Source: Chrysoperla carnea
Lineage: Eukaryota > Arthropoda > Insecta > Neuroptera > Chrysopidae
DNA: 64,000 nt
NCBI RefSeq assembly: GCF_905475395.1
Contig: NC_058342.1
Coordinates: 37,132,640-37,196,639 of the forward strand
Direction of reading: 5' to 3'
Shown here: positions 1,204 to 62,681 of the stretch, in pieces
Layout: each line of letters starts with the position of its first letter
Position numbering within the stretch: the first letter of the stretch is position 1
The notes under the pieces: generated by a model
What the model was told of the DNA's origin: nothing
Database searches by the model: none
Seen by the model: the letters and a program-made list of their open reading frames with translations, nothing else
Position numbers and translations under genes: made by a program

Positions 1204-4200
1204 ATCCATTTTTGGAAATACAATTTTGAATTTTTTTTCCACAAAAACCTCCCAGTTTTGAACCCTTTGCAGAGCTCCCTTTAAATTTCTTATCAGTTCT
1301 TATTCTTAGGAGGCTTTTTAAACTCCATAACCAAAGTTTGTTACATCCAAAGTGTACTTTTGGGTCATCAAAAAACCAAAATTTTTTCGTAAAAAAATCA
1401 CTCTTTTCGGAGGCGCCAGCAGGGGTTTTGTGGAAGATTTCCTGGAGTATACGGCATTCCTTATGTTTTTTGATCCGTAGAATGCATTTCTGAGGATTTC
1501 AAATTTCCATAATTCCAATTTTTATGCATTTTTTGTCGAAAAATACGGATTGTGGTGAACAACCAAGCAAAAAAAAAAATCAAACTTTTTGGAAGAATTT
1601 GCAGGGGTTCTGTGGAAGATTTAGTGAAAGTATGGGTCATTCCTTGTATGAATTTTCATACATTTTTTATCGAAAAATACGGATTGTGGAAAACTGACCG
1701 AGTAAATGGGTCTAAAACTACCAAAATTCAATTCTATGGGTCAAACCCTTTTCAGAGCCCACAAAACTAGAGCCAGTGCTTGAAATATCTGTAAAAAAAA
1801 AATAAAAATCGAAAAACTTTACACGGTACATTTTTTTATTGATTTCAGAACAAAAATAAATTTTGAAAATTTTCTCACAGGCCTGAGTTTTTGTTTTGCT
1901 GAATTTTATACAAATTATTATTTATTTAAAAGGAAAATCCTCTCCGCACATTCTTACACAAAAATTTTTACATTTATTCTTGGGATCAAAATTTTGCAGT
2001 AAAATGTAGGTTAAAGACTTTCCACTTGAAACAGAGTTTTTATTTAATTTAATCAGTCAGAATGCTGCACATCAGTATTACGCATGCGCCAACTTTGTGA
2101 TATGTATTTCTCTTTTTAAATTTATTTTAATATTATGCGGAATGATTGATTGATTGATTTTTATTTTAGAATAGATCAAGATTTTTGGTCGTTACCAATT
2201 ATAGATTTCAAAAAAAAAAATTATTATGCTTATAAGGTCCTTAAAACTAATAATTTCAAACAAAATCATACTTAAATGTTCAACTCCGACGAAAAACCAA
2301 ATACGTCACGTTCTGATAACTTTGTTTTTTAATTGTGTGCTGTCGACAAAGCATATATTGTTTGAAACTGACAATTACCTAACGGACACAGCATAAAGTG
2401 TAGTTGTTATCCACCGATGTAAAATGAATGAGAAATTTGTCTCAAAATAAACCTTATATCGAAAATGTCTGAAGATCAGCTAAAAATCGTAGAATTATCA
2501 GCCACATTTTGACATCAAAAAATGTTCTCTAACTCGAAAAAAGAGTTTCTTGTTTTTATTGACTCGATGGCCTAGAAAAACTTTAAACTCCTCACTTCTT
2601 CTTTAATGATTTGCACGCCCTGATAAAAAAGTCCGATTAATGAATCAGAATTTTCCAATTCATTCCGATTCATTATCATTAAAACCAATTAAAGAAACGA
2701 ACATTTAAGGATCATTTTTGAAATTATTATCCCATTCTTATCTTAATATTATGTAGAAACATGAAACCCATAATTGTAACATGTATGCAGTGGCAAGAAA
2801 AATTAGCTTCAATTTGGCGTAGCCACTTTTCCAGTATTTTGAAAATTTTAGTATAAATTGGCCAACAATCTACACTACAAATATACATCCCAAATTATTT
2901 CATAAAAAAAAAAGGAAAAAAATAACAACATTGGCCAAAGTTTAAAAACAATTGACTATCAAAGAGGTCACTATCAAACGACCTGACCCTGTGACCTCTG
3001 TTTAAACAGAAAAGATTCACTATATACATATTTTTAAAAAGAAAAGTCCTCTATATTAAAATAAACCCATTTCTAAAAATAAGAATTCTTCTTTTATTGA
3101 TATAGACGGGGTGGGTGGGGGTTGGAGAGACGTTGGATGTTGGACGGGGGGAATTAGGGCTTGGAATTTACATGTAAAGCACCACTTTGCTATATAAACG
3201 TACATTTTTTTACGTTTTGGCAGTTAATACAGGGTTGGATGGATGACATTTAACACATATACAAGTTTTGTGAGATCATTTTGAAGAAGAAAGAATAGTC
3301 CAGAATGTCCTGAAGAACTATTCCGGAAGACCATGATCATTCATCGGTCTCACTTCTGAATTGGAAGCTATTGAAAACAAATGTGTCCAAATATCAAGAT
3401 ATTATGGACCAAAATGGTCGAAATTCTGCACATTTTGGATAGATCCTAATGGCTGGTGTTAAATTTACCAATAAAAATGATGTATTTGTTGGGGCCACTC
3501 TGTAGTTTACGACATTAAATTTACATAGATTACAAACATGTGAAAACGTGATAGGATTCCAAAATTTTCTTTTATAAATCGCTTATCGTTCGATTAATCA
3601 ACAAACTCAGGTTGGCGATCGAATTGTTCATCTGAAATTTTGAAGAAATCTGTATTTGCGTCAAAAAAAAACCATTAATTAGGATAAATCGAACTCAAAA
3701 ATGAGATTTTGTGGCTAAAATCAATGTCATATATATACATTTCAAGATTTCGACGAAGAATCAATCAGGTCTTCGAATTTCTAATTTTAAAAACTAGAAA
3801 GATATTGTTTTTAAACCATTTTAGAATCTCAAAATTGTTTGACATTTCCAGATTTCCAGGTTGATCGCCAATCCTATTCAAAATTGGAAAAATCCACTGA
3901 GGTTTTCCCGTTTTCCCCAATTGCGTGGCACAATGAATTATAATGAAAGTTGATTTTCTTAATATTTCATCACAGCCAATTTGAATTACAGGAAAACTCC
4001 CTAATTTCTTCCCGATTAATGAATTTCTTTGAAACATGTTGAAATCTTCTAAAATATTAGCAACCCTGATAAGTAATGACGTCATATGCAAACGGAAACT
4101 TTTTATTTTTTAGGCAGTTGATCTCAAATCTTGAGAAAATCAAAAAATACAACAAATTTTGTTGAGTTTTGGAGGTTTTGAAGGATACACTGAATGGTTT

Positions 4201-24039: not shown

Positions 24040-25040
24040 GTCCGATTATTGAATTTTTTGGATCAAAATAGCCTTATAACATGAGTTTTATCGAAATTGA
24101 AAACGAAAAATTTATCTCGAATTTTTGCAATTTTTTGAAGGGGTACCCCTTGGAAAAAATCGAAAAATTCAAAAAAAATTTTTTGTTTCGGAATTTGATA
24201 AAACTCTGTTTATTAAGTAATTTTGACCCAAAAATTTCAAAAATTGGATTCATTTAACATTTGGGCGAGTAGTTTTGGAGATAACGTCAAAAATTGATCC
24301 AAGATATCGTTTTTCTCCGAAACTATTAACTCAATTGTCCAATGAACCCGATTTTTGAATTTTTTGGGTCAAAATTACCTTATAAACTGAGTTTTATCAA
24401 ATTCCGAAACAAAAAAATTTTTTGGAATTTTTCGATTTTTTCCAAGGGGTACCCCTTGAAAAAATTTCAAAAATTCGAGATAAATTTTTCGTTTCCAATT
24501 TGGATGAAACTCATTATATAAGGTAATTTTGACCCAAAAATTTCAAAAATTGGATTCATTTAACATTTGGGCGAGTAGTTTTGGAGATAATGTCAAAAAT
24601 TGATCCAAGATATCGTTTTTCTCCGAAACTATTAACTCAATCGTCCAATGAACCCGATTTTTGAATTTTTTGGGTCAAAATTACCTTATAAACTGAGTTT
24701 TATCAAATTCCGAAACCAAAAATTTTTTTTGAATTTTTCGATTTTTTCCAAGGGGTACCCCTTGAAAAAAATTGCAAAAATTCGAGATAAATTTTTCGTT
24801 TCCAATTTGGATAAAACTCAAGTTATAAGGTAATTTTGACCCAAAAAATTCAAAAATTGGATTCATTTAACATTTGGGAGAGTAGATTTCGAGGTAATGT
24901 CAAAAATTGATCCAAGATATCGTGTATCTTCGAAATAACTAGCTCAATCGCCAAATAAACTCAATTTTTGAATTTTTTGGATCGAAATTATCTCATGTAC
25001 TGAGTTTTAGCAAATTCAGAAACAAAAAAATAATTTCGAT
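24040..25040. repeat. 306-bp tandem satellite of palindromic units
   Basis: Three units have a GGGTACCC centre at 24141-24148, 24447-24454 and 24753-24760, exactly 306 bp apart. Each unit is itself an inverted repeat: TGGGTCAAAATTACCTTATA on the left is matched by its complement on the right, so open frames of the same protein sequence (MNPIFEFFGSKLPY) occur on both strands at 24648 and 24866. These frames are therefore by-products of the palindrome, not genes. A decayed fourth unit follows to about 25040. Related sequence flanks the G-rich block at 54290-54540 and occurs at 45840-45930. Confidence 0.85.
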
Positions 25041-28000
25041 AAAATGTGGGAAAAAAAAGTGGGCGACTGGCCGAATAGTTTTTAAGATACCGAGCAAAAT
25101 TACAGGACTTCTAAACAAACTTTCACCTAATATCGAAACAAACAACAATTTTGTTTCTTTATATTTACAAAGTAGAATTCATCTGAACCCTTTATGGCAT
25201 GTGATTACTCATGCTTAACAAACTGTAAATTATCAAAATTAGAAAAAATAAGATAAAAGAAAATTCATATAGGCAATGTTTATTACATAGTAAATATATA
25301 CATTGCATAAAAAATTATCAATAAATATATTCAAGAAAAAAATTCTAAAAAATTTTCTTTTAAAAAATTTCAGAAATAAGGTTAGAAAATTTGAAAATTA
25401 ACATAAATTTCCCGCATTTTTTCTTAAAAAAAATATATAAATCAAAATTTAAATAGAGGTCTCTCTGAAACACACCAAAAATTGCATAATCGAGCAAAAG
25501 GGTACATATGTTGAGAAATTCTTAAAAGAAAAAATCAAAAATTTAAAATTTGTTGACAAGTACTTACCATTTTTGGTCTTTTTTTTAAAGAATTGGTTTT
25601 TTATTTTGTTTTTGTTAAACAATCACAGCACATTTAGGAGAGAAAGGTGAAAGAGTTTGAGTAGGAACTGTAAGAACGTGAACGCTTTTTCTTTTTTTTT
25701 TTGTTGTTATTGTACGTTTTCAAACAAACGATCACAACATTTGAGATATCAATGATTACAGATATTGGAAAATAAACACACACTTGCTGGGTTTCATACT
25801 GACACTAAGTAAGTTGAAATATACCGGCGGCCTGCTCACACTTATCACAACGACAAGTGACACCGACTACGACTAGAGCCAGTAGCTGGTAGCTGCATCA
25901 TGCCATGCTTATGCTACCATACATATACTATACTTCATTCCACCAATGCAGTGTCCTAAACAGGTGGCATCATTATTTTAATACACATTTCATTTGTTTC
26001 TATAAATATTTTGATTACTTCATTACTAAATATTTTTAAAACTAATGAATGGGACCTTGTCAAAATTTATAAGTCATATGAAAATCACTTTTAAAAATAA
26101 CGTCTTATTTTCAACATTGTAGCTTCTACAACTTTCTTTTCTTTTTAAATTATTTATATCATAATGTAAAAATCATTATGCCTTGTTAAAAATTCCGTAT
26201 TTCCCGCGCAGAATTTTAAAATTCATACTCCTGAGTATGAAAATTGTGAAAATGAGCCACGATAGTTTTGTAGTAATGCTAATTTAACTCCTCTTTCAAT
26301 CAATTTCAGGGTCATTATCAAGGGGGAGCGCTGATCAGGGCAGCTGCCCTACCCTCTTGACGTGTAGTTCCTATTGATTTAATTGGCTAAATATCTGTTC
26401 ATGCCAAAATACTATTGAAGTTATTTAAGTCGAAAATTTCTTATTTTTTGCTCCCCCCCTTGGTCCAAAAGCTGCTTTCATACATTTTTGTGTATAGCAA
26501 TCTACTTTTTATACTTAAGTCCCTGGCGCAGTAATCCTAGTAGTCAACCTTCCTATAGGAATGACTAGCTCAGCCGAGATCAGTATTGCCAACTCTACTA
26601 ACTTTTAGGTAGATCTACTAACTTTGAGTATTTTTAGAATAGAAAGTTGGTAGATTACCAACTTTGAGTAACTCGAAGTAACTAGATCTTAGATTAGATC
26701 TACCAATTTTTAAGCAGAATTTGCTGAAAACTATCAACCTTTTAAATAAAATCAACCACTTAAGACAGATTTTGAGTTGGCAACGCTGGCCGAGAGATTA
26801 CTACACGTTCCTCTTCGGAGATTCGAGAGTGATTCGATATTCACATCAGCCTGTACTAATCATAGACAAAATTCTGTAACTATTTGTGAAAAGATTTCAG
26901 CTTGAAAGGTCGTCATGTATTGATCAAGGCAAAAATTACTAAATTCAATCGATATTTTATTAGAAAAATGAATGTTGTTCGATAAGGGTTTCAACTTAGG
27001 TCTTATTTTTCGCATCCTAGCACTAGGAGTGTACTTTTGTACTAAATTCCTAGCACTCCTAGTAAAATACAATATGTAATTGAATATTGTTGACATATAG
27101 TTTCTTATATCACTGGTAACCACTTACCTAACCTTACTAACATTAAGTTGACGCTAAGGCTAAGTTCTGTCATAGATCTAAGATCTATCACCTAACGGTG
27201 GTAATTTAATAGCCAACCACTGAAATACATTTTATTATTTGTTTTGCGGTTTTGATTTTATTTAATAAGAAAAATATTATTAATTGACCTTTAAATTCAT
27301 TCTTAGTTTACTTTTCAATATTAGAAAATAAATAACAGTAACAGAGACAGAGACATCTATGAGATAAAATATTTAAGATTTTTATTTAAATTCAAGAGAC
27401 TAGACTTTGAGAGGCTTTAAGATATTTATACAATTAATTCACTGCTAGTGTTAGATAAAAATAGTAATATCATTCATTGACGTCAATAATTTGTATATAA
27501 GTCAAAATAACTCGCGTCAATCGCTTAACAATCTTTAGTCGCGTGATGAGAGATTTGCTTACGCGTTCTGCATATGCGTCAAAGATTTCGCGCGTTAAAT
27601 ATTCTTTAATCAAGAACATATATACCCCGTGATTTTGGACATATTTCAGAAATTATTCGTCCCTCCAATCATGAAATGAATGCGATGTTTGAATTTTTTT
27701 GGGTTATCCAAAACGGAAGTACAATTCTTTATTTATTTATTTGACGGTTACTCTTACCTTATCTAATGGGGTGTCTCAAGCCGATCTTTTGCTGGATTTA
27801 TTTTTCCTCGGAGAAGGATGATTTAAAACGAAAGAACCATTGCGATGATGATATCAACTCAAGTCCCTATAAATGAAAATCTGGCAGCTGACTACAGCGT
27901 GTCCAATTCGTGATCGGTTGACCGTCATAATCCGCTCGCATCAATGAGAGAAACGCGGTAAACTGTCAAGATCACTTCGTTTATAAAAATTTTTTATTAA

Positions 28001-54539: not shown

Positions 54540-54933
54540 TTGGTTGGGTTGGGTTGGGTTGGGTTAGGTTGGGTTAGGTTGGGTTAGGTTGGGTTAGGTT
54601 GGGTTACGTTGGGTTAGGTTGGGTTAGGTTGGGTTAGGTTGGGTTAGGTTGGGTTAGGTTGGGTTACGTTGGGTTAGGTTGGGTTAGGCTGAGTTAGGCT
54701 GGGTTAGGCTGGGTTAGGTTGAGTTAGGTTGGGTTAGGCTGGGTTAGGCTGGGTTAGGTTGGGTTGGGTTGGGTTGGGTTGGGTTGGGTTGGGTTGGGTT
54801 AGGCTGGGTTAGGTTGGGTAAGGCTGGGTCAGGCTGGGTTAGGTTGGGTTGGGTTGGGTTGGGTTGGGTTGGGTTGGGTTGGGTTGGGTTGGGTTGGGTT
54901 GGGTTGGGTTGGGTTGGGTTGGGTTGGGTTGAG
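54540..54933 (+). repeat. TTGGG/TTAGG telomere-like tandem repeat, about 390 bp
   Basis: The left half is mostly the ten-base unit GGGTTAGGTT with variants (TTACG, TGAG, AGGCT). The right half, from about 54845, is nearly pure TTGGG. TTAGG is the usual insect telomere unit, so this is an interstitial array of telomere-like sequence or a related microsatellite. All G runs are on the + strand. Confidence 0.9.
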
Positions 54934-55662
54934 TGTGGGAGTGGGAGTGGGAGTGGGAGTGGGAGCGGGAGCGGGAGTGGGAGCAGGAGTGGGAGCGGGA
55001 GTGGGAGCGGGAGTGGGAGTGGGAGTGGGAGCGGGAGCAGGAGTGGGAGTTGGAGTGGGAGTGGGTGTGGGAGTGCTAGTTGGAGTTGGAGTGGGAGTGG
55101 GAGTGGGAGTAGGAGTGGGAGTGGGAGTGGGAGTGGGAGTTGGAGTTGGAGTGGGAGTTGGAGTGGGAGTGGGAGTGGGAGCGGGAGCAGGAGTGGGAGT
55201 TGGAGTGGGAGTGGGTGTGGGAGTGCTAGTTGGAGTTGGAGTGGGAGTAGGAGTGGGAGTGGGAGTGGGAGAGGGAGCAGGAGTGGGAGCAGGAGTGGGA
55301 GTTGGAGTTGGAGTTGGAGTGGGAGTGAGAGTGGGAGTGGGAGTGGGTGTGAGAGTGGGAGTGGGAGTGGGAGTGTGTGTGTGTGTGGGAGTGGGTGTGG
55401 GAGTGGGAGTGGGAGTGGGTGTGGGAGTGGGAGTGGGAGTGGGAGTAGGAGTGGGAGTGGGAGTGGGAGTGGGAGTGGGAGTAGGAGTGGGAGTGGGAGT
55501 GGCAGTGGGAGTGGCAGTGGGAGTGGGAACGGGAACGGGAGCGGGAGCGGGAGTGGATGTGGGAGTGGGAGTGGGAGTGGGAGTGGGAGTGGGAGTGGGA
55601 GTGGGAGTGGGAGTGGGAGTGGGAGTGGGAGTGGGGGTGGGAGTGGGAGTGGGAGTGGGAGT
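54934..55662 (+). repeat. GGGAGT hexamer microsatellite, about 730 bp
   Basis: Follows the previous array without a gap. The unit is GGGAGT with variants GGGAGC, GGAGTT, GGTGTG and GGAACG. Because the unit is a multiple of three, all frames stay open: (GS)n, (GV)n and (EW)n on one strand and (LP)n and (TP)n on the other. These 280-307-codon frames are by-products, not genes. Confidence 0.95.
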
Positions 55663-58600
55663 TTCATCTAATACCAAATTACCAAATAAACACTTTTAGT
55701 ACTTTTTCGATCAAAATTACGTTAGGATTCAGAAACTATAAACATAATTTGATTTTCAATTTGATGTTGGTACCTATCGAATCTTGTATGAATCGATAAT
55801 GATATGATTATCTAAACACTTGTTAGAACATTTTGACAACTATATCGAACAAAACTTTATAATTGATAAACTCCATTAGTTTTGATGTGAACATGTGGAT
55901 GGAAGGAACATGTGGTACCACATGGCAAATACTAGGACCAAATAAATATGTCCACCACTCCATCACATCATTTTTAAATGTATTTGTTTATCCTTCTGAT
56001 TAATTTAATTACGTAATCTTATCACAATTATCACTTCTATTGCTATCTTTTTTCGTTCTATCAATTAGTTTTTAAAACAATTTTAATAGGTTCCTAGGAG
56101 GACATGTTTTATTAAATCAAGCACCCAAATCCATAAAAAGCATAAATCAAACTAGGATCATTTAAGTATCAAGTGTCCTGAATGGTACCAATACAAAGTT
56201 GTTGAAAATGTACATTTTAATTACAAATTACATTTATTTAGAACTTGACTGAGTTAATTGTTGAAATACCATGTATAGACAGTGTTAATTACGCAATAGT
56301 TTGTTTTTTCACGTCATATAAGTAAAGAAAGATAGCCACTCTTACATACAAAGAAATAAGAGTATCTTTTTTCTCACTTATTCAGTGGATATGGTAAAAA
56401 ACAAACATATACATAGTATATGTAACGTATAAATTGAAAATATATGCAATACCTGTGTACATGTTTCAAACAAAAGTTGTTTTTTTTTCAAGACCTTGAC
56501 CTATGTTGCTAAATTACAAACTTAACTACACTTTTTAAGTTCTGAGCAATATTTTTAAATAGTAATTGATTATAAATTAGTTTTTGGAGTTAATGGAGTA
56601 AGATTATGCTTTCCTTTACCCGACCACACATTGCAAAATTTTGTAGATATGAGTATAATTGGTCTAAATTCGGAAGTTATTGTAAGCATAGAATGAAACT
56701 TTCTTAACAGGAATAATTGGCAGAACCTTTCAAACCTTTGTTGGCTTAGTTTTTGAATTTCATAAAACAGGAAATCATTAAAATATAATAAAATGAGGAT
56801 TAATTATCATTAATAATGCGTTAATTCAATCCCTTTCCCCTTTTAACTGATTTGAATTTAGGATTAACATTCTTTTTAATCTGTGGATTAACCAAAATTA
56901 AAAAGAAGCGTAGGTGTTTGTATTGCATCATTATTCTAACAAAGCCTTTGTAAGTATGGTAATATATTATCTAATAATATTTATTACATCGAAGAAAAAT
57001 TTTGTGTTACGGACTCATATTTACGGGGGTTGTAAAATAATATTCAAAATAGTTTATGGTTTGAAAATTTTAATTTATGGTCGGAAAATTTATTCCTATA
57101 AATACTCCAATTATTTTTATGGTTCTCATACGCAAAACAACGCACTTAAATTTATTCTAGATTTAGATTATGGGATGCGTATCAGTACGCGAATATGTTG
57201 CAGAACAGCTTACGTTTTTTTTTAAACACTCATCAACATATCACCCAAGCAGTGGCGACTTTCATACTAGTTATAAGTATAGCTGTTCATAACATCACCT
57301 AAAGAGTCTATTTCTGGTTTTCCAAAGAGTTAATTTCAGGATGTAAAAAGTGAGATTGAAGTTTTAAATAAGCAACATAGTTCAATTGGATCTTGGGTCC
57401 GTAGACCCATTTTGTAAACTCGTAAGGGTGAAAACTAGGTTAGAACATTATATGGGAATATCATTTATATGTGTGTGACACCACAGTCGTGCTATATTTA
57501 CACAACTGTAGCTATCTATGGGTGACTATCTTTCTTTACTTACATGATGTAAAAAAAAAACAAATTGCATAATTAACACTTTCTATACATGGTATTTTAA
57601 CAATTAACTCAGTCAATTGTTTGTTTTCACTTGTTTACTATAACGAAAAATTTTTATTCGAAATTCGACAAAGTACCACTGTTTTATTTTAAAATATATT
57701 GGACACATTTTTATCTGTGTGTATAAACATTATGGCTCACTGAAAGAATGTTTGGGGTTGATTTAAAACGAGGGGGTGGTTTTTTTTATAACTTTATTGA
57801 AAATATGTAACAATTTTTGTATATTTTTAAAAAATATCTTTTTTTTGCACTTAATAAATATTTTAAAAATAAACATGTGTCACCAAAATATGTGTCATGT
57901 TACACAAAATATGTGTCATGACACCACCGATTTATTTACTGAGCATATTTTAATTGAACAAGAACATTATTTAATTATTTTTGATTTTTACAGTCGTTCA
58001 CTTTTTTATTTTGAATCAGTGGAATTCTTAATATCAGATTAAATAATTCAATACTAAGATATGTTTGTTAAATGGAGAATCATCGAATGTTATATAATCA
58101 GGGTTTTGTAGTTATCAAAATATTCTTGTGAAAGTGAAGTTGGTTGTTATCCATTTAGGATCTGCCAATCCTGACGATGAATTCGAGCGTGGAATGGCGT
58201 TATTTTACCAAAATTTCGTTTGCCAAACCTTGTGCAAACCGTGCCCAAGGCGAATAAATCAATGCTTGATTTACCAGTCTTTACCCAAGATTGATTCTGT
58301 ATTATATTGCCAAACCTTGGTATGCGAGCTTTTTTTCTGAGCTTTATGAAGGCTAATGAACCAACTTTGTTGTCAAGTTTTATTCATGTTTTGTGCAGTT
58401 TTTCTCGCAATTTGTCACTGTCTTTTATGCTATTTGCCACTGTCTAGTATTATAATGAAAATTTTATGAAAAATTGCAAAAAATTAACTTTATTTATTGA
58501 TGATGGAATATTAATATTACTTATTTACTATTATACAGTCAAAACTGGCTATAGCGACATTAAATGGACCCACAATTATAGTTATTATAAGATATACCTA

Positions 58601-59073
58601 TTCTTATGAATATATCTTCTAAGAAAAAATTCGATAGAAGCTAATTTGGCGATACATTTACGAATTGGAGATGCTCCCAACGAGACCTTATGAAATTCCA
58701 TCTTCTCTGTTGACGATCTAGCTTTCCATTTCCAGTTTCAAGTTATGTTAGTTGAAAATTTGTTCCCTTGTATATGTTCAAAATAGTATATATTGGTCAT
58801 TATAGATGAAAGTAACAATTGGTTCTAATAACCAATTTGTCAGTATAGCCGATTTTGACTGTATTTACTTAAACTTTTCTAGAAGGTAATATTTATCAAA
58901 TCTATCGAGATTATTTTTTAAGCATATTCTCTGTGTATTGTAAGGTTAAAAAGGGCTTAATTGGTCTTAATATAAGAAAAGATAAATTACTTTTGAAAGA
59001 AAAGTGTGTGTGGTACTTTTGTACGCACGTAAGAAGTTATACCCGACTAGAAATTTTCACGTGCTCCCACTTG
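55663..59073. other. Non-coding DNA with repeat pieces
   Basis: 55663-55720 (CCAAATAAACACTTTTAGTA, then CGATCAAAATTACGTTAGG) resembles the flank left of the G-rich block. 56245-56530 (reverse) and about 57300-57640 (forward) are TATACATGGTAT family fragments. Frames at 56914-57225, 57776-58042 and 58128-58340 have no recognisable domain. At 57876-57925 the word AATATGTGTCATG recurs. Confidence 0.4.
58533..58863. mobile_element. Pogo/Tigger-like MITE (CAGTCAAAA ends), 331 bp
   Basis: Starts TACAGTCAAAACTGGCTATA and ends CAGTATAGCCGATTTTGACT followed by GTA: inverted ends beginning CAGTC, flanked by TA. CAGTC-type ends with TA target duplications are typical of the pogo/Tigger branch of Tc1/mariner elements. 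No transposase is present. Fragments of similar ends are at 53150 and 35195-35225. Confidence 0.7.
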
Positions 59074-60366
59074 TGCAGTGAAGCACAAGTCATTGTATTT
59101 TAGTATGACTTGTGGAGTGAAGCACAAGTCATAGTATTTTACTATGACTTGTGTAGTGGAGCACAAGTCATTGTATTTTACTATGACTTGTGTAGTTAAG
59201 CACAAGTCATTGTATTTTACTATGACTTGTGTAGTTAAGCACAAGTCATTGTATTTTACTATGACTTGTGTAGTTAAGCACAAGTCATAGTATTTTACTA
59301 TGACTTGTGTAGTGGAGCACAAGTCATTGTATTTTACTATGACTTGTGTAGTGGAGCACAAGTCATTGTATTTTACTATGACTTGTGTAGTTAAGCACAA
59401 GTCATAGTATTTTACTATGACTTGTGTAGTGGAGCACAAGTCATTGTATTTTACTATGACTTGTGTAGTTAAGCACAAGTCATTGTATTTTACTATGACT
59501 TGTGTAGTTAAGCACAAGTCATTGTATTTTACTATGACTTGTGTAGTTAAGCACAAGTCATTGTATTTTACTATGACTTGTGTAGTTAAGCACAAGTCAT
59601 AGTATTTTACTATGACTTGTGTAGTGGAGCACAAGTCATTGTATTTTACTATGACTTGTGTAGTGGAGCACAAGTCATTGTATTTTACTATGACTTGTGT
59701 AGTTAAGCACAAGTCATAGTATTTTACTATGACTTGTGCAGTGAAGCACAAGTCATAGTATTTTACTATGACTTGTGGAGTGGAGCACAAGTCATAGTAT
59801 TTTACTATGACTTGTGTAGTGGAGCACAAGTTACAGTATTTTACTATGACTTGTGGAGTGGAGCACAAGTTACAGTATTTTACTATGACTTGTGGAGTGG
59901 AGCACAAGTCATAGTATTTTACTATGACTTGTGTAGTTAAGCACAAGTCATTGTATTTTACTATGACTTGTGTAGTGGAGCACAAGTCATTGTATTTTAC
60001 TATGACTTGTGTAGTGGAGCACAAGTCATTGTATTTTACTATGACTTGTGTAGTTAAGCACAAGTCATAGTATTTTACTATGACTTGTGTAGTGGAGCAC
60101 AAGTCATTGTATTTTACTATGACTTGTGTAGTTAAGCACAAGTCATTGTATTTTACTATGACTTGTGTAGTTAAGCACAAGTCATTGTATTTTACTATGA
60201 CTTGTGTAGTTAAGCACAAGTCATTGTATTTTACTATGACTTGTGTAGTTAAGCACAAGTCATTGTATTTTACTATGACTTGTGTAGTTAAGCACAAGTC
60301 ATTGTATTTTACTATGACTTGTGGAGTGGAGCACAAGTCATAGTATTTTACTATGACTTGTGGAGT
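59074..60366. repeat. 39-bp hairpin satellite, about 33 tandem monomers
   Basis: Each monomer is CACAAGTCATAGTA, TTT, TACTATGACTTGTG plus an 8-base spacer: a 14-bp stem with a 3-base loop. Most copies have CATTGTA in the left arm, giving one mismatch; others are perfect. Spacers vary among TAGTTAAG, TAGTGGAG, GAGTGGAG, GAGTGAAG and CAGTGAAG. The order of variants recurs 17 monomers (663 bp) apart: the region from 59401 matches that from 60064. Since 39 is a multiple of three, a 429-codon frame stays open on the minus strand (60336-59047, 13-residue repeat QVIVKYNDLCLTT); this is probably a by-product. No promoter or related flanking gene is seen. Confidence 0.95.
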
Positions 60367-62681
60367 AATAATAATTTATAAATAATATAAACAAATAATA
60401 CATACTACAATTAGCTTACTAAAGTATTGACACCATACTTAAATATTTTTACCATCAAAACCAGTTACATTTTTTTCCCTTTATGGCACATTTTTTTATG
60501 GAAGCACCCATATTTTAGGTATTAAATTCATTCAAATAATTTGTTTGGCTGGATATGCAGCTCATTCTAACAACACAATTTTCAATAGTTTTTTATTCAT
60601 TGAGCTTGTGCTAACTTTTAGAGTTACTTAGTCATTTTCGTGTGTACCTGACTTCCGTAAATTATAGTCCAACAGACTAGGAGTTTTTAAAATTTTATTA
60701 AATGAAGTTTTGTTGGTGTAAATATTAAATTTTGTTCAGCAGGAATATAATAATCACACTTTTTAAACTTTAGACCTCCGAGTGGCGAAACTGTAAACTT
60801 CACCCCAAATAGTGGGTAAATAATTCAACCAAAAAAAGGTTGTACGGGAATAAAAACGCATTATAATGATAGGTTTTTAGGTGTCGTAATCCCTACCTAA
60901 AAAATTGTCCGATTCTAAACTTTGAGCAATTGAATTTGAGCTCTTATAATTTTTCTTTACAGTTGTAGCTATACATTTCAAGTTTTTCTTAAAAAATAAT
61001 AAAATATATAAATATTAGAAAATGTATAAATGTTTAGAAAATTGTTGGAAATATTTATAAAATAGAAAGTATTTTAAGAAATAAAAGAAATATGTTATTT
61101 TTGATTTCTCGATACGGGATTCTAAAAATACATGACTAAGGAAGGCTGCGATGTCTTTTGTTTCAAATAAAAATATTGTATTTAGCTTCAATAATAAACT
61201 TTTCTACTAAGAAGAGGTGAAAATAGAAGAAAATGGTATCAAATGTAACCGTATAAATGTATCATACACCACATTTGATTTTCCAAGGAAACAAAAAAAA
61301 AACAAAATCAAATAAAATAAAGAGAAAAAATTGGCTTTAAGTAACATGAAAAATTCTACAAAGACGCTAGCATACGTCACACGTGTGTGGATAAAATCAT
61401 TTTCATCAAAGCTGAAACCTTGTTAGATATTTTCTTATGTTTTCCAACGAACAAATATAATATCTTCCTTTAGAGTTTTCTTCTTTGATTTCCACCCTTT
61501 CATGCCCGATACAATAGAAGGAAATTGTATTTTCCACTTAAACTTTATGTTAATTTCGTACAATTGAATGAAGATCATTAGGCTTCTATATATGACACCC
61601 CCGTCGAAAAAAAAATTTCGTAAATTAAATATGAAAAGTTTTATCAACAGGTGAAAAATGATTTTGCTCATTTGATTGGTGAATTTATATACTATATATG
61701 TATATATTTTCATATTATACATATGTATTGTGGAAAATGTTATACAGAATAGTATATAACGATGGTAGAAAAACCACTCCCCCTTATTCGATATCATTTA
61801 GTATATAAGAATGAAAATCTTCGATGCGATCACACATTTTCACTTGAAAGTTCTTGAAGATCTCGAAGTTTTTCCTAACTAAAAACGGGTGTACATTGTT
61901 TTTATATAATATTCATATTCAACAAGTATAAATTTTCATTCCTTTAATATTCATGTAAGTACAACTTTATGATTTTTCTCATATTTTTTTATGCATTTTA
62001 AATTTCTTTCATGACTTGCATTCGTAATTCGATACTTACAACTCACTCTTAGTCTTAACTCAGTTTAATCTTTCTCAATCACTTCTGTGGGATGACAAAT
62101 AACAAAAAAAAAACTTTTTTAATTAAACTCGATAAAAAAATTTCCAAGCCGAGTTGTATTCTCAAACCAGAAAATTGTGTTACATAACTCAATTATGAAA
62201 ATTCATTAAAATTAATCACGCAACATATGAAAATGTTCTCATTAAAAAGACAACGGAAATGAATTTTATCAAGGTTTTAACACTTCATTTTCTTTTTTCT
62301 TTATAATTTTTCTTTTCTTTTTTTGAGAATATAATTTCCGTTTAGATTTTTTAATTATATGCTTTTTCAATTTTGTGGTTTTAAGTACTTATTAGTTAGT
62401 ATTGGGGTATGAAGTGGGGTAGTGAATACGGGGTAGTGCGCGGTATCTTCTCTTGTTGCTTGATTTATTAAATATTAACGTTGTGTTAATTAACAGTTAT
62501 TTCTTGTTTATAATAAAATCAGGGTTGTCCTGACTCTGATTAGTTTTAAATATAATTAAAATACGTTTTTCGATCTACAATTAAACGGACCATAATCATT
62601 CTTGCTTTTATTATTTATTTATTTTATTATATTATATTAAAAATTGCATGATTTTTCATTTTTTTTGCATTTTTTGTTAAC
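60367..62681. other. AT-rich non-coding DNA
   Basis: No exon or RNA gene was recognised. The 120-codon minus frame at 61435-61797 is low-complexity and rich in Ile, Phe and Tyr, as expected from AT-rich non-coding DNA. A less AT-rich stretch at 62400-62460 (GGGGTATGAAGTGGGGTAG) has no identified role. Confidence 0.4.

Follow-up and report, generated by a model that had tools for sequence, protein, structure and literature searches.

A dispersed palindromic satellite array in Chrysoperla carnea, probably derived from a module of a foldback-type transposon

The array in the window and its relatives in the genome

A tandem array in which each unit can fold on itself raises the question of whether the symmetry is kept for some function or was simply inherited from the DNA that was amplified, and of how such an array came to stand where it does. 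We addressed this question for an array contained in a 64,000-nucleotide stretch of Chrysoperla carnea DNA (hereafter, the window), which corresponds to C6:37132640-37196639. The array consists of 33 head-to-tail palindromic monomers of 39 bp on the forward strand (59084..60370, with cores from 59084 to 60362), the spacer of the last unit running into flanking DNA. At the left edge it is preceded by a partial monomer that starts at unit position 25 (59069..59083, forward strand). All 32 intervals between the 33 units measure exactly 39 bp and TRF reported a period of 39 with 33.3 copies at 59069-60366, which confirms the original prediction of about 33 head-to-tail monomers with exact spacing.

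Each monomer is laid out as a stem strand CACAAGTCAT[A/T]GTA, a TTT loop, the second stem strand TACTATGACTTGTG and an 8-bp spacer, corresponding to a 14-bp stem with a 3-nt loop. The loop and spacer are those originally described; the claim that every monomer forms a 14-bp stem does not hold in full, since the stem is perfect in only 10 of the 33 units. In 21 of them a T at position 11 faces the T at position 21 (T in 33/33) and gives a T.T mismatch. As had been noticed, changes are focused on one stem position and on the spacer: position 11 is T in 21 units and A in 12, positions 32, 36 and 37 of the spacer vary, and positions 38 and 39 deviate in the last unit only. Other stem changes were seen at positions 8 (C31/T2), 10 (T31/C2) and 20 (C32/G1). 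When the monomer types are written as letters, the order along the array is ABCCCBDCBCCCCBDCEFBGGHDDCBCCCCCIJ, in which blocks such as DCBCCCC recur. The folding check was positive: a 157-base stretch of four monomers gave four separate hairpins, one per unit, with a calculated energy of -48.2 kcal/mol as compared to a mean of -13.8 for shuffled sequences (z -15, DNA parameters). A scan of the window with a 19-bp core, allowing up to 3 mismatches, gave 44 matches (0.17 expected in shuffles), of which 43 fall within the array and the remaining one, with 3 mismatches, at 27057.

In the whole-genome search that the original prediction had proposed, the 31-bp core (with A or T at position 11) was found 1,032 times as an exact match (597 + 435), and the reversed control gave 0 matches. 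The exact units total about 40 kb in an assembly of 559 Mb (559,487,470 bp; 337 contigs), and the 39-bp repeat is a minor, low-abundance satellite. The matches listed in a search with the whole array include long arrays on each of the six large contigs, together with many shorter hits of about 176-215 bp. The matching published assembly, inChrCarn1, is reported to have been made with PacBio HiFi reads (PMC10116181); for this reason, and because many other loci contain this unit as well, the window array is considered real and an array invented by the assembly unlikely. The monomer core had 0 matches in a virus collection, and the titles and abstract openings of the few papers listed in literature searches on Chrysoperla and satellite DNA or transposable elements contained nothing on this repeat.

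A foldback-type transposon carrying the monomer

Short arrays of the monomer have common flanks, and the monomer itself was found as a module of a foldback-type transposon with long modular inverted repeats, to which we gave the label FBL. A complete copy is located at L073:826-3492 (C4:18.68 Mb). Its outer inverted repeats (826-960 and 3358-3492) are 99% complementary, and it contains tandem modules of 16, 70, 74 and 39 bp, the last being present in both arms (1478-1671 and 2894-3087) in opposite orientation. The arms of the copy at L065 measure 373 nt and are 92% complementary. FBL usually bears four to five copies of the 39-bp module per arm. The 16-bp module contains a 12-bp perfect palindrome. 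The idea that every tandem module of FBL is palindromic was dropped, as the 70- and 74-bp modules contain no palindrome of at least 8 bp.

The FBL end motif gave 77 matches genome-wide (39 + 38). With a register in which the 4-base variable tip is counted as part of the element, picked by eye and then used for all copies, 9 of 14 paired FBL copies have identical 9-bp flanking duplications; in the remaining five the flanks agree at 7, 1, 0, 5 and 1 of 9 positions, and an additional pair read from end fragments (L088/89) matches at 7 of 9. FBL therefore shows the features of foldback elements, namely inverted repeats made of tandem modules and target duplications of about 9 bp. Units of 39 bp are contained in 4 of the 14 paired copies (9, 7, 3 and 29 units) and are absent from the other 10. 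A genome search for the Mutator domain PF10551 gave 14 matches, none near the 77 FBL ends, and tied no transposase to FBL. Twelve of these 14 matches to the MULE transposase domain sit in the last 2 Mb of C1 (138.2-139.8 Mb). The tips of the FBL copies in L073 and L075-L089 differ (CGGT, GGAA, GCAA, CGAA and others, just outside GTGGCTATCCGCACAATA) and the two tips of one copy are often unlike, the invariance of GTGGCTATCCGCACAATA being due to the design of the search.

An exact right junction between FBL and array is present at 21 places; the locus at C1:62.92 Mb accounts for two of them, and another is at C5:17757498. The FBL copy at C1:62.92 Mb also contains the T8/C10 monomer that is kept in the window array. 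At least three loci with FBL on both sides carry expanded arrays, of 29, about 149 and 202 units. The smallest lies in L086 (C6:34.876 Mb), where 29 monomers occupy most of the 1,372 bp between the FBL ends, so that this copy is mostly satellite; its flanks show no clear 9-bp duplication (1/9 matching). At C2:2.14 Mb, about 149 units stand between stretches that match FBL (by eye), and at C5:17.75 Mb an array of 202 units has FBL sequence at both sides. The repeat is thus short within the transposon, long in satellite-like arrays and amplified inside the element.

Position 10 of the unit distinguishes these arrays. A C was found in 36 of 36 units of eight short FBL arrays and in 36 of 36 units of L073, L074, L075 and L090 (9 units in L090), making 72 of 72 in short FBL arrays. 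In 12 arrays of more than 10 units, a T is present in 920 of 956 monomers; it is also present in 8 of 8 units of the two short arrays at C2:0.217 and C2:0.99 Mb, neither of which matches FBL. The 202-unit array shows both states (19 C, 182 T and 1 A), arranged so that the array opens with CCCC on the left and closes with CCCCCCC on the right, T prevailing in between. Transposon-type monomers thus stand at both edges of this array and the derived type within. Two transposon-type monomers, with C10 and a GAGTGGAG spacer, are retained within the window array (59825..59902, forward strand). The change from C10 to T removes the only mismatch of the stem, a C.A pair, and the calculated folding energy goes from -9.1 to -12.3 kcal/mol; for the T11 mismatched unit, the main variant of the window, -9.8 kcal/mol was calculated.

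Neighbouring elements and array junctions

The contexts of 33 arrays, tallied by reading several analyses rather than by one script, were FBL in 18 cases, a MITE in 6, a TA-flanked element (here called T) in 3 and none recognised in 5, while for one array (C2:82.7 Mb) the flanks lay outside the loci. The arrays with no recognised mobile neighbour, in the comparison with T, MITE and FBL, are those at C1:0.74, C2:0.217, C2:0.99, C2:37.96 and C5:45.8 Mb. Outside this set of 33 are several of the listed whole-array matches, at C1:5.9, C3:22.9, C3:84.2, C3:87.4, C3:93.1, C5:2.8, C5:4.3 and C6:27.8 Mb, and the FBL/array junctions at C1:2.39, C1:23.08, C3:10.70, C3:64.45 and C6:29.49 Mb were excluded from the reading. 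Inverted or partial units are present inside or at the edge of some arrays.

The MITE makes 8-bp duplications and its end has 81 matches in the genome. At C1:54.7 Mb, two direct copies of 305 bp (98.7% identical) flank the array, with CTCATAGT outside both, and a similar composite with an extra MITE copy is present at C1:79.2 Mb, with GTATCCTT outside both ends. These MITE-array-MITE loci with outer duplications fit composite transposition and also fit recombination of a circle with resident MITEs. A MITE is found on one side only of the arrays at C3:92.7, C4:2.9 and C2:7.03 Mb, and at C5:13.98 Mb a MITE end fragment alternates with runs of monomers. Insertion of arrays into hairpin loops of other repeats was considered and rejected, the MITE being a whole 305-bp element beside the array.

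Two copies of T were identified (L094 and L095; 1,660 and 1,661 bp), with TA on both sides and terminal inverted repeats. No open frame of at least 90 residues was found in T, and its label as a Tc1/mariner-like element is putative. A 15-mer from the T end has 101 exact matches in the genome, with 0 and 1 for the reversed control. At C2:48.8 Mb, T retains 43 bp of one end and 357 bp of the other with the array in between, the outer bases being AA on both sides and not TA; at C5:10.87 Mb, the array adjoins 98 bp of the T end.

The third of these loci is the window. Immediately left of the array is the right end of T on the reverse strand (59041..59073), identical over 33 bp (the A of TA plus 32 bp), whose final 5 bp, ACTTG, are common to the array start; BLAST extended the identity to 35 bp (100%, 59039-59073). 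The TA at which T is placed belongs to a dispersed repeat, S, the left part of which covers 58996..59040 (forward strand, left limit approximate) and which resumes after the array at 60367..60413 (forward strand), about 20 bp of intact S copies being absent by eye. S was recognised since three alignments, 74-75% identical, run across the joined window flanks and since its sequence is uninterrupted in copies that retain the left part, such as L018, L019, L021 and L023. No T sequence was found right of the window array and no target duplication was seen. The junction looks repair-like, as if T had been lost and the gap filled from an array, and an insertion followed by a deletion would look alike; gap repair is a reconstruction from three loci, of which the window is without one T end. 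An explanation of this junction as an insertion into a loop was dropped, as the junction proved to be a truncated T element. Just left of the array, a small element with inverted ends ACAGTCAAAACTGGCTATAGCGAC.../...GTCAGTATAGCCGATTTTGACTGT was seen by eye at about 58534-58865.

Symmetry, origin and chromosomal setting

Taken together with the position 10 pattern, these contexts make it very probable that the window array is a secondary, dispersed copy of a satellite whose monomer is the FBL inverted-repeat module. The 39-bp repeat would originate as a tandem module in the FBL inverted repeats, and unequal exchange or slippage would enlarge the module array inside the element; the variant with the perfected stem (C10 to T) predominates in the expanded arrays. 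Array DNA may move by transposition of its carriers and also by repair of breaks left by transposon excision, with template switching into an array through microhomology. The dyad symmetry derives largely from FBL, in which 13 of the 14 stem pairs are present. A more specific reading, in which a nomadic palindromic module is copied into the excision gaps of unrelated transposons by hairpin-assisted, microhomology-driven template switching, with foldback, MITE and TA-type carriers in one genome, is proposed tentatively.

The direction from FBL to satellite is indicated by the gradient from C10 at the edges to T10 in the interior and by the uniformity of the short arrays. The opposite order, a satellite that came first and was captured by FBL, MITE and T each on its own, could explain why three kinds of element hold or adjoin the satellite and why 10 of 14 paired FBL copies are without a 39-bp unit, and PMC12628747 relates a proposal that in Xenopus the MITE miDNA4 took up a tandem repeat that was already there. 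However, the short FBL arrays resemble each other in copy number and flanks and have C10 in common, FBL bears other tandem modules too, C10 is retained at both edges of the 202-copy array, and the arrays beside MITE copies are mainly of the T10 type, with junctions in common. It is strictly speaking conceivable, but unlikely, that FBL captured an older satellite. With FBL as the probable source, one assembly shows a series that goes from the short module to expansion within the element, a transposon that is mostly satellite, arrays beside other elements and arrays with no recognised carrier, and the steps from transposon to satellite become directly testable, including whether a better palindrome expands more.

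The perfected stem in the expanded arrays suggests that hairpin formation may have helped expansion. That hairpins or cruciforms actually drive amplification, by slippage or fold-back synthesis that favours palindrome quality without benefit to the host, is possible but doubtful. A single base, which converts a C.A mismatch into a perfect stem, separates the short FBL arrays from most expanded units, and some arrays contain inverted or partial units. On the other hand, the C10 to T change may have arisen once and hitch-hiked, and the mismatched T11 unit of the window was amplified too. The candidate observation that array ends are cut at the hairpin tip or loop was also rejected: mapped ends spread over the unit and do not cluster at the loop, as judged by eye with no statistic and with one end of the C1:0.74 Mb array mapped incompletely.

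Selection for the hairpin is not supported. Among 1,140 monomers (238 distinct) no compensatory Watson-Crick double change was found, nor in a first set of 1,000 (215 distinct), and double changes in stem pairs numbered 2 and 2, where 4.7 (1,000 monomers) and 6.1 (1,140 monomers) were expected under independence. The power of this test is reduced by low divergence and by the collection of units by similarity: monomers with up to 6 substitutions from the consensus were gathered, which favours conserved units, the 1,000-unit set was without inverted units, and units from added loci needed at least 2 of 3 loop bases to be T. Minor bases had frequencies of 0.4-7.2% for stem positions, 0.6-2.7% for the loop and 2.1-49.8% for the spacer; within the spacer, positions 35, 38 and 39 vary no more than the stem. 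The TTT loop is therefore conserved like the stem, and conservation extends to the entire 31-bp core, as recent amplification predicts. Of the options originally offered, pure amplification is favoured by the evidence; a protein-binding array, a replication pause site or a source of structured RNA is not supported.

Accordingly, it is highly improbable that selection maintains the array as a structured element of one of these kinds. The tandem monomers do fold strongly, the stem is less variable than spacer positions 32-34, 36 and 37 (stem position 10, at 7.2%, comes nearest) and most expanded arrays have the stem-perfecting substitution in common. Nevertheless, compensation is absent, conservation is no weaker in the loop than in the stem, most units of the window array (21/33) are of the mismatched variant, and the arrays, on six large contigs and in differing surroundings, have no common genomic address. 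The original prediction had named two outcomes that would speak against the structural interpretation; stems do differ at other loci without compensation (C10 in all 72 short-FBL monomers), whereas an assembly artefact, the other outcome, is unlikely. No present function of the hairpin is indicated. By analogy, a putative sequence-specific binding to the transposon module is possible, the precedent among foldback elements being Galileo, for which the Tetris paper (PMC4079207) cites extra transposase-binding sites in tandem repeats.

The route to satellite DNA is a known one, to which the present repeat clearly adds a new example; here the unit is palindromic, and two further element families contain or border arrays. 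The closest precedent for an FBL-derived satellite, as described in PMC4079207, is Tetris/TIR-220 of Drosophila virilis. Tetris is likewise a non-autonomous foldback element: its inverted repeats contain tandem repeats, it makes target duplications of 8-10 bp, and its repeat has grown within the element into longer arrays that resemble a satellite. The comparison is one of description. The monomer is palindromic and of 39 bp here, as compared to about 220 bp in TIR-220, and, unlike what is described for Tetris, the arrays here are also found next to, or in place of parts of, two other element families. Xstir, miDNA4 (Xenopus) and the Donax MITEs, in the account of PMC12628747, likewise have a tandem repeat within a small inverted-repeat element that can turn into satellite, and microhomology-driven integration was proposed for them. 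In contrast to these MITEs, the likely source here is a foldback element, and at two loci the array lies between MITE copies in direct repeat, with a single 8-bp duplication on the outside. The macro-dyad satellites of Tribolium madens (PMC13081366) are also insect satellite DNA with hairpin or cruciform potential; their symmetry, as reported there, spans tens of kilobases at putative (peri)centromeric sites, whereas here 39-bp palindromic units form short dispersed arrays.

C6 is likely the X chromosome, reported as 38.62 Mb in Chrysoperla carnea (PMC10116181), and the window would therefore lie on the X. FBL ends are enriched on C6 (19/77 as compared to 5.6 expected by length; binomial p 2e-6), as are FBL/array junctions (6/21; p 0.003), both p-values being too small as the ends of one element are not independent. 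No X excess was seen for MITE ends (7/81) or T ends (4 among the 100 listed; the total is 101, and the one left is presumably that of the window). The window also contains an interstitial telomere-like TTAGG/TTGGG array (54542-54930), directly followed by about 121 GTGGGA hexamers (54935-55662). One strand of this region is strongly enriched in G, with a GC skew of 0.64 for the 54-56 kb bin; for comparison, bumblebee telomeres are stated to use TTAGGTTGGGG (PMC9841428). A 306-bp tandem repeat at 24042-25029 is 67-78% alike, in pieces, to period-306 repeats at two contig ends (400 bases at the start of C1 and 440 at the end of C6), where the comparable 94 and 134 bases are identical between successive units.
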